Shown here piece by piece: positions 11,356 through 19,168 of a stretch of 64,000 nucleotides of DNA. Each line of letters opens with the position of its first letter. Position 1 is the first letter of the stretch. This DNA comes from Candidatus Woesearchaeota archaeon (GTDB taxonomy: Archaea; Nanobdellota; Nanobdellia; Woesearchaeales; GW2011-AR9): the NCBI GenBank assembly GCA_945861715.1, contig CAMAVK010000001.1:310001-374000 (forward strand), given 5' to 3'. Position numbers and translations under genes: made by a program. The notes under the pieces were generated by a model that ran no database searches, was not told where the DNA came from, and worked only from the letters and a program-made list of their open reading frames with translations.

Positions 11356-12420
11356 ATGTTTCAACTTAAAGAATACATCGCCCCGGCATGCATCATCCTT
11401 CTGCTCATCCTCTCGTACTTCATTTTAAAACCATTTCTGCTCGCCATCTTTCTTGGTGGACTTCTTGCCTACCTATTTTATCCTCTCCAAAAAAGAATTT
11501 TTCCCAATGCCAAAAATCGTACTTGGGTAGCTCTCTTTTTGTGTGTCCTCACCTTATTAGTCATTATAATCCCTTGTATCTTTCTTCTTCAGCGCACCGT
11601 GCACGAATCCTACGCTCTCTATACTGAGTCGCGTCATCTCATCGCCAAAGGCGTCTTCCAAAATTGCCACACAACCTTCTGCCTCAACATAAAAGAATAC
11701 GCACAAGACCCCATGGTGAGTCAACAAATTCAAAACACAATAACCCTCGCCACAAATACCCTCCTGGAGCGCAGCTCGACTTTCCTTGCAAGCCTTCCAA
11801 TCATCTTGCTTAACCTCTTCATTATATTCTTCACCATGTTCTATTTCTTAAAAGACGGCCCAAAATTTCTCGCGCATATAAATGACCTATTAGGACTCCC
11901 CGAACAGAAGTTTAACACGATCCTCACTCGCCTGCGACGCGTCGCCAGAGGTCTTACCTATGGCTATACTCTTATCGCCTTACTTCAAGGATTACTCGGA
12001 GCAATTGGCTTTTGGATATTTGGTGTTCAATCCCCCATCTTCTGGGGCATGATTATGGCAATTCTCGCCCTTATCCCCTTTCTTGGAACCGGTGTTGTCT
12101 GGCTTCCCGCCTCCATCTTCCTCATCTTACAAGGTTCATTGCAAGATTCATCCACACTCGTGTATCACGGTGTGGGTCTGTTCTTTTATAGCCTAATTGT
12201 TGTCTCCAGTGTGGATAACTTCCTCAAACCAAAGGTCATGGGTGGTGCAGCAAACATTCACCCTGCTATTATCATGCTTGGAATAGTTGGTGGAATAATA
12301 AGTTTCGGCGTCTTTGGTGCCTTGGTTGGACCATTCATCCTCGCCATGACCATCATCTTCATCGAAGAACTGATACTACAAAAAAAATGTGCTCACGAAT
12401 CAACTCTTCAAATCAAATAA
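11356..12420 (+). CDS. AI-2E family transporter (PerM-like permease)
   Basis: Polytopic membrane protein with the family signature (ALLQGLLGAIGFWIFGVQSPIFWGMIMAILALIPFLGTGVVWLPA). Confidence 0.88.
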   Translation: MFQLKEYIAPACIILLLILSYFILKPFLLAIFLGGLLAYLFYPLQKRIFPNAKNRTWVALFLCVLTLLVIIIPCIFLLQRTVHESYALYTESRHLIAKGVFQNCHTTFCLNIKEYAQDPMVSQQIQNTITLATNTLLERSSTFLASLPIILLNLFIIFFTMFYFLKDGPKFLAHINDLLGLPEQKFNTILTRLRRVARGLTYGYTLIALLQGLLGAIGFWIFGVQSPIFWGMIMAILALIPFLGTGVVWLPASIFLILQGSLQDSSTLVYHGVGLFFYSLIVVSSVDNFLKPKVMGGAANIHPAIIMLGIVGGIISFGVFGALVGPFILAMTIIFIEELILQKKCAHESTLQIK

Positions 12421-12548
12421 GCAGGAATCCCCATCCATTCGCACGGAAAAGCAGCGACTTTTCCGGCGCACCGATAAGGTCGTTGCCTTATCGTGTGCAT
12501 GGTGGGGAGGAATACGAGTACAGCATTGAGATTCCTATCTTATTTGAT
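12412..12548 (+). repeat. Palindromic element copy A (possible structured RNA or MITE-like element)
   Basis: Terminal stem ATCAAATAAG-C-AGGAATC / GATTCCT-AT-CTTATTTGAT; inner CCCCA-t-CCAT/ATGGTGGGG; arms GGAAAAG-cagcga-CTTTTCC and GCGCAC(c)GATAAGG-tcgttg-CCTTATCGTGTGC. Shares its ends with copy B at 19001-19085. Confidence 0.75.
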
Positions 12549-12552
12549 GCAA

Positions 12553-12659
12553 GAAAGGGAACGTTCCCTTTCAAGAAATGGAGAAACTACTCCATTTCTG
12601 AAAAGAAATGAAAAGCTCCAATTCATTTCTTGTTCTGCACAGAAAATCTTCGATTTTCT
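12553..12659. repeat. Cluster of four hairpins adjacent to element A
   Basis: GAAAGGGAAC|GTTCCCTTTC (12553-12572); AGAAATGGAG-aaacta..-CTCCATTTCT (12574-12599); AAGAAATG...CATTTCTT (12603-12631); AGAAAATC-ttc-GATTTTCT (12641-12659). Confidence 0.75.
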
Positions 12660-12745
12660 TCAACTAACCAAGAAATAAACACCTAAGCACCAATCACCTT
12701 ACCACAGAGCAAAAACATATAAACCTCTTCTCCCATCTAAACTCC

Positions 12746-13201
12746 ATGGCATTCTACGAGGAACCACTCTACAAAGTCCCTGTTGTAAGATCCAGATTTC
12801 TCATACCCAAACTCATCATACTGCTTGCTCTTGGCGGTCTTTTCTATGGTGGTGTCCTCATAAACATCATGCTCCTCGATCTCTCAGCTTCAAACGAAAC
12901 GCTCACCAAAATTATCACCTTCTTCTTTCTTACTGCAATTATCGCATTAGGCATGTATATCACCTATGTCAAAGCAGAAAAAGAATATCATTTCTATCGC
13001 ACATGGATGGAATTAGGGAACGAAAAAGTGCTCTACACCGCCATAACACAAGCAACCACAGAACAAAATATCTGGGATAAATTATTCCATACAAACCAGA
13101 TAAAAATTCCTGGTCACACCTTGCGTCATGTACCTGAAGAACTTCATTTGGATGAATACATCAACAAACTCGTAGTTTATGCCCAAAATAAAGGACAATA
13201 G
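12746..13201 (+). CDS. Hypothetical membrane protein with two predicted TM helices
   Basis: ORF with TM segments LIILLALGGLFYGGVLINIMLL and KIITFFFLTAIIALGMYITYV. Confidence 0.6.
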   Translation: MAFYEEPLYKVPVVRSRFLIPKLIILLALGGLFYGGVLINIMLLDLSASNETLTKIITFFFLTAIIALGMYITYVKAEKEYHFYRTWMELGNEKVLYTAITQATTEQNIWDKLFHTNQIKIPGHTLRHVPEELHLDEYINKLVVYAQNKGQ

Positions 13202-18983: not shown

Positions 18984-19000
18984 AATCAAATATCTTCTGT

Positions 19001-19085
19001 TAAATAAAATAAGCAGGAATCCCCTGGATTCATCCTGGGGAGGAATGCGTGTTACGCATTGGGATTCCTATCTTATTTTATTTTA
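19001..19085 (+). repeat. Palindromic element copy B (short form)
   Basis: TAAATAAAATAAG-C-AGGAATC / GATTCCT-AT-CTTATTTTATTTTA; hairpin AATGCG-tgtta-CGCATT. Aligns with copy A over GGGGAGGAATnCG..GT......GCATTGnGATTCCTATCTTATTT. Confidence 0.75.
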
Positions 19086-19168
19086 GAAAATCCGTTATAG
19101 AAAAGGAGCGAAAATCCCCATCCCATTAAAATAAAATAACCCCTTTTCAGGATTTTCTTTAGCTCCTT
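19073..19168. repeat. Nested inverted repeats abutting element B
   Basis: TTATTTTATTTTA (19073-19085) pairs with TAAAATAAAATAA (about 19127-19139); AGAAAATCC pairs with GGATTTTCT; AAGGAGC pairs with GCTCCTT. Confidence 0.65.

Follow-up and report, generated by a model that had tools for sequence, protein, structure and literature searches.

Insertion sequences of the IS200/IS605 type carry subterminal hairpins, and they integrate on the 3′ side of a tetra- or pentanucleotide (PMC7290912, PMC6006769). Their transposase-free relatives in Haloquadratum walsbyi, the palindrome-associated transposable elements (PATEs), are related to the IS605 type and are often invaded by other small elements (PMC3119063). 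We analyzed a 64,000-nucleotide stretch of a Candidatus Woesearchaeota genome (the window; contig 1, CAMAVK010000001.1, positions 310,001 to 374,000) holding two copies, A and B, of a structured palindromic element. By analogy, this element appears to work most like a PATE. It is transposase-free with near-terminal palindromes that seem related to IS605-type ends, it lacks target duplication and apparently inverted terminal repeats, and small elements appear to invade it frequently, as described for PATEs (PMC3119063). Here, unlike in PATEs (PMC3119063), the palindromes form part of modules of 80 nt, and the outer stems of these modules bring the tips of the element together by pairing. The Woesearchaeales element also comes from a different archaeal lineage, and its origin by deletion of a transposon core is putative. 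With IS608 and ISDra2, both of the IS200/IS605 type, it shares hairpins in a subterminal position, a short motif (here TTAC or TTAA) that lies 5′ of the insertion, a related tetranucleotide closing the right end, and the lack of target duplication. It differs from them in having no tnpA or tnpB inside, in using extended tip-pairing stems where they have just a 4-nt guide, and in a left end with two mutually exclusive conserved folds. We found no description of this Woesearchaeales family in the literature searched.

The element is gene-less, is about 160–250 bases long and consists of two modules, so that a structured palindrome is present near each end. M1, a three-way-junction palindrome, forms the left end and is followed by M2, a long hairpin that forms the right end. 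A search of the whole 1.3-Mb home genome found A (322408), B (329002) and two further copies, C (485066) and D (171983); all four are on the + strand of contig 1. When a loose-pattern scan for extra copies returned 30 places, the known four alone folded this way. Copies A, B and D are intergenic, directly after stop codons, and copy C has a tRNA gene on one side and a divergent gene on the other. M2 directly follows M1 in copies B and C; in D a short double-hairpin insert separates them. The M2 layout in B, C and D is AGAAAATCC-GTnTTR-GAAAAgggGC..hairpin..GCcccTTTTC-A-GGATTTTCT-TTAA. Covariance models were used for M2 (R1), for M1 (R2) and for the M1 core (R3, built only from transposase-free copies). 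The features of copies A and B in the window are as follows.

12407–12411, + strand: left-flank target motif TTCAA of copy A, adjoining the left end and falling within the final codons of the AI-2E-type transporter ORF
12412–12548, + strand: M1 of copy A (left end), with outer stem P1, P1b, P2 and P3 (R2, 37 bits, E 6e-6)
12441–12498, + strand: double hairpin in the P2 loop of copy A, with a matching insert in the same loop of L051
12549–12640, + strand: M3-type hairpins in the M1/M2 linker of copy A (AGAAA..TTTCT, loop GAAACTAC), with counterparts elsewhere
12641–12663, + strand: M2 of copy A, apparently reduced to the outer stem AGAAAATC/GATTTTCT plus the right end TTCAA, by comparison with B-type M2
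19000–19003, + strand: left-flank target motif TTAA of copy B
19004–19085, + strand: M1 of copy B (left end), short-loop form (R2, 75 bits, E 6.5e-15; R3 core, 35 bits)
19082–19162, + strand: M2 of copy B (right end), stem AGAAAATCC/GGATTTTCT around an inner hairpin, right end TTTAG (R1, 71 bits, E 4.7e-15)

A preliminary description of this DNA had reported one palindrome in each copy. The terminal stem that it gave for copy A, ATCAAATAAG/CTTATTTGAT, lies exactly at 12412–12421/12539–12548, copy B matches what was written of it, and the proposed compensatory change in the outer stem (C-G in A, A-T in B) is genuine. Against dinucleotide shuffles both folds are far beyond chance, with a z of −7.9 for copy A (folding energy −62.9 kcal/mol) and −4.9 for copy B; the whole copy A element folded as ssDNA gives a z of −10.8. 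The A and B folds persist with DNA parameters, and copy A folds equally well on either strand. M1 of copy A also provides the final codons of the AI-2E-type transporter gene, together with its TAA stop. However, the palindrome had been taken for the entire unit. Although the stem coordinates were right, the elements are bigger (A, 12412–12663; B, 19004–19162), and the second module had been missed (in B, 19082–19161, 71 bits with R1). Likewise, the two long arms described in copy A exist (12441–12498), but A is the exception, with a short P2 loop found in B, C, D and most relatives.

Copy A is thus an element enlarged by extra double hairpins. A copy in another genus (L051, genome G015) has a P2-loop double hairpin matching that of copy A. 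The M2 of copy A seems to have been cut down to AGAAAATC-TTC-GATTTTCT-TCAA, which stands after several M3 hairpins. M3 is a double-hairpin unit of about 60 nt, CAAGAAA..TTTCTG-nn-CAGAAA..TTTCTTG, whose loops include GAAACTAC and ATCGTTG. In several genera it occupies the linker between M1 and M2, the P2 loop or the interior of M2 (window 12549–12640; L065, L067, L051, L137, L142, L145) and is perhaps a second tiny mobile element. Both M3 and the P2 arms appear, by analogy, to be insertions of other small elements into this one.

The preliminary description had proposed looking for more copies and for covariation. Both were found, the copies in the home genome (four in all) and in relatives. 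The M1 alignment has 14 base pairs with two-sided changes, in 39 such cells versus 11 on shuffling and 5–12 on sliding. The M1 core hairpin accounts for 26 two-sided cells (7 in shuffles), and covariation in M2 is weaker (11 versus 5). This core hairpin consists of a stem AGCA/TGCT, a 3 × 3 internal loop GAA/GAA, a stem ATCYCC/GGRGAT and a loop of about TTTA. The 5′ strand of M1 has two partners: pairing with a proximal strand forms the core hairpin, and pairing with a distal strand forms a longer outer stem. Different lineages retain both pairings. In G127, for instance, AGCC pairs with GGCT and GGCT; in G130, GGAC pairs with GTTC and GTCC. Cognate pairings are stronger than cross-lineage ones (means of −12.5 versus −8.7 and −14.2 versus −7.8 kcal/mol), values that are illustrative because they come from ten hand-picked representatives and RNA energies.

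To our knowledge, long tip-pairing stems and an apparently bistable left end exceed what is seen in IS200/IS605-type ends. We tentatively raise the idea, which we regard as doubtful for now, that this is a distinct class of ssDNA transposon end in which the left end would act as a three-strand switch. Its 5′ strand AGCAGAAATCYCC would pair either with the proximal GGRGATGAATGCT, giving an IS200-like hairpin, or with the distal strand, which would lock the cleavage tip in a long stem; both pairings would be kept in several families, and the folding state could then gate cleavage or tell excision from integration. Mutually exclusive end hairpins, and an insert within an end, are also described for IS605 and a PATE-like element in Halanaerobium hydrogeniformans (PMC7290912). 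There the competing folds are at the right end of IS605 (PMC7290912); here they are at the left end, and several families keep both pairings.

Covariance models found the element in at least 24 of the home family's 48 genomes and also in other parts of the order Woesearchaeales. Order-wide, M2 occurs in 57 of 353 genomes (R1) and M1 in 27 of 353 (R2); a phylum-wide sample of 371 genomes gave no M1 outside the order. A DNA search of 60 genomes (the home genome and 59 relatives) had matches in 11, and the matches of a pattern scan of named genomes were mostly Ca. Woesearchaeota. Genomes mostly have one to five copies. M1 followed directly by M2 is seen in other families too (G127, G242, G229, G112, G147). 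The weaker M2 matches in G141, G121 and G215, from other families, are multi-copy elements with the M2 core in which the preceding sequence is unlike M1. Palindromic elements in multiple copies, in which a different sequence precedes an M2-like core (GCGTAA..GGATAGC or similar), were recorded as L157–L159 (G141), L160–L161 (G121), L162–L163 (G215), L164 (G089) and L165–L166 (G066), and these seem, from their sequences, to be sister families. For viral carriers, the M2 pattern had no match in IMG/VR. The sole match outside archaea is a contig titled Ca. Nomurabacteria (L065, MFTJ01000039.1), which carries the element. This contig is probably misbinned Woesearchaeal DNA, since one of its proteins shares 62% identity with a protein from family genome G198.

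Copies within a genome are nearly identical and lie in unrelated DNA. The seven complete copies in G229 are 95% identical, with 60-nt flanks at 31% and 28%, about the level of unrelated DNA. Five copies in G121 are 100% identical (same-length pairs; flanks 28% and 30%), and two in G127 are 97% identical (flanks 28% and 22%). The ends are sharp. The left flank reads TTAC (G229, G215) or mostly TTAA (home family) just before the element, more loosely in G121 and in home-genome copies A, C and D, and the right end is fixed by lineage as TGAC, TTAC or TTAA. A T two bases to the right of the insertion point (9/9 in G229, 6/6 in G121, 22/26 in the home family) is perhaps a target preference. Tandem insertion beside an existing right end was seen in L067 and L162.

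These ends bear on whether the element is a MITE of a DDE transposase that duplicates a TTAA target (IS1380/piggyBac-like). TTAA does stand at both ends of many home-family copies. However, when the left and right tetranucleotides are compared within each copy, they do not match: TTAC (7/7) versus TGA(C/T) (9/9) in G229, TAC/TGC/CAC versus TTAC (6/6) in G121, and TCAA and ACAA versus TTAA in home-genome copies C and D. This argues against target duplication, and the per-copy comparison of left and right ends rules out a TTAA duplication. In other lineages a fixed TGAC or TTAC closes the right end, and the left flank is variable. We noticed no inverted terminal repeats shared by M1 and M2, and the similarity of their ends, read by eye, is just a short TTAAA/TTTAA. 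We therefore give a DDE origin only a very slight chance. A functional structured RNA dispersed in intergenic copies, possibly bistable and riboswitch- or sRNA-like, is improbable as well. The strong covariation, the invariant unpaired bases (GAA/GAA in M1, GTAAA/TA in M2) and the conservation of two alternative helices would fit such an RNA, but covariation is equally expected for ssDNA hairpins read by an HUH transposase and so is no argument for RNA by itself. No shared gene neighborhood was noticed, the copies are near-identical while their flanks are unrelated, and the ends are precise, with a TTAA/TTAC motif. Read by eye, the genes that follow A, B and D have their likely TATA boxes downstream of the element, which places it outside their 5′ UTRs and argues against the RNA reading. 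The preliminary description recognized no known RNA family, and Rfam agrees, with only chance-level matches to the element and none at or above the curated score.

Palindromes of the REP/BIME kind, kept by the host for a nucleoid or mRNA 3′-end function and spread by a domesticated TnpA (RAYT), are likewise small palindromes tied to Y1 transposases (PMC2817692, PMC8266576). The intergenic, palindromic copies right after stop codons (A, B, D) and the core hairpin common to Y1 loci would suit this reading. However, genomes mostly hold 1–5 copies rather than hundreds, the unit is 160–250 nt with distinct left and right ends, and copy C sits between a tRNA gene and a divergent gene. By comparison with REP/BIME and RAYT systems, copies here are fewer, the unit is larger with two distinct ends, and a RAYT partner is putative (PMC2817692, PMC8266576). 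We consider this explanation very unlikely.

The reading that we prefer, as a non-autonomous IS200/IS605-type element, depends on a link to Y1 (HUH) transposases. Of the 353 genomes of the order, 125 carry Y1 genes (PF01797), and Y1 tnpA is present in 17 of the home family's 48 genomes. The best R3 match (L172, E 3e-6) lies on the sense strand about 120–160 nt upstream of a Y1 domain, in a genome that also holds M1–M2 copies (G197). Sense-strand R3 matches directly upstream of tnpA are also present in L190 (E 0.02), L189 (0.04) and L174 (4.9). Three of the five top R3 matches fall in the zone upstream of tnpA, about 3% of the searched sequence (P ~4e-4, computed post hoc). In L172, L174 and L175 we read by eye TTAA, then 7–10 nt, then the hairpin, the layout of M1. 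The tnpA elements have the core hairpin in common with M1 and lack its long outer stems; R2, the full M1 model, had no match in the first 20 tnpA loci. Right-end matches at tnpA loci are weak (L171, an M2-like right end, E 0.006; L208, 0.05), and none of the tnpA loci read is a full-length M1-tnpA-M2 parent with intact ends. Within the family, the presence of the element is only weakly associated with that of Y1 (11/24 versus 6/24, Fisher P 0.11), too weakly to count as evidence. A search of the 98%-complete home genome detected no Y1 gene, which means that its copies are probably stranded. The other two of the five best R3 matches (L199, L201) are not beside the tnpA of their loci. These left-end-like hairpins (L199:2756–2795, L201:2194–2233), GGCNGRATACCC..GGGNNGAANGCC followed by GTCCTCCTTC, may be solo ends of other elements.

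The two-module anatomy, the covariation, dispersal in unrelated flanks, fixed ends, the left-flank motif, the lack of target duplication and the core hairpin upstream of tnpA suggest that A and B are probably copies of a non-autonomous, PATE-like IS200/IS605-type element, which we infer was moved in trans as ssDNA by a Y1 TnpA. That the element is a non-coding RNA gene is unlikely. On a single strand, e.g., the lagging-strand template, both ends would fold, and a TnpA supplied in trans would recognize the subterminal hairpins. It would cut just behind TTAA/TTAC on the left side and behind the closing tetranucleotide on the right; the element would leave as a single-stranded circle and be pasted 3′ of another TTAA/TTAC with no target duplication. 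Of the alternatives first offered, "ncRNA or MITE", the MITE-like half has thus held up: the copies are near-identical and lie in unrelated flanks, their ends are fixed, no target is duplicated, and the core hairpins also occur in Y1-transposase elements. Nothing positive was found for an RNA gene. On this interpretation, Woesearchaeales, which are DPANN archaea, gain a widespread family of gene-less mobile elements, and the natural, apparently bistable left end could serve as a model for how HUH transposases choose substrates. The case also calls for caution in ncRNA discovery: when DNA folds at transposon ends covary, the pattern can look like that of an RNA gene.

For copy A, six relatives yielded no clean empty site; the two neighbor genes are adjacent there but convergent, without M1. 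The AI-2E-type transporter gene and the next gene, of 151 aa (window 11356–13201), are co-directional here with copy A between them and are convergent neighbors in the relatives (L219, L220, L221, L227, L228, L229). This difference in orientation indicates that the locus has been rearranged, with copy A at or near the breakpoint.
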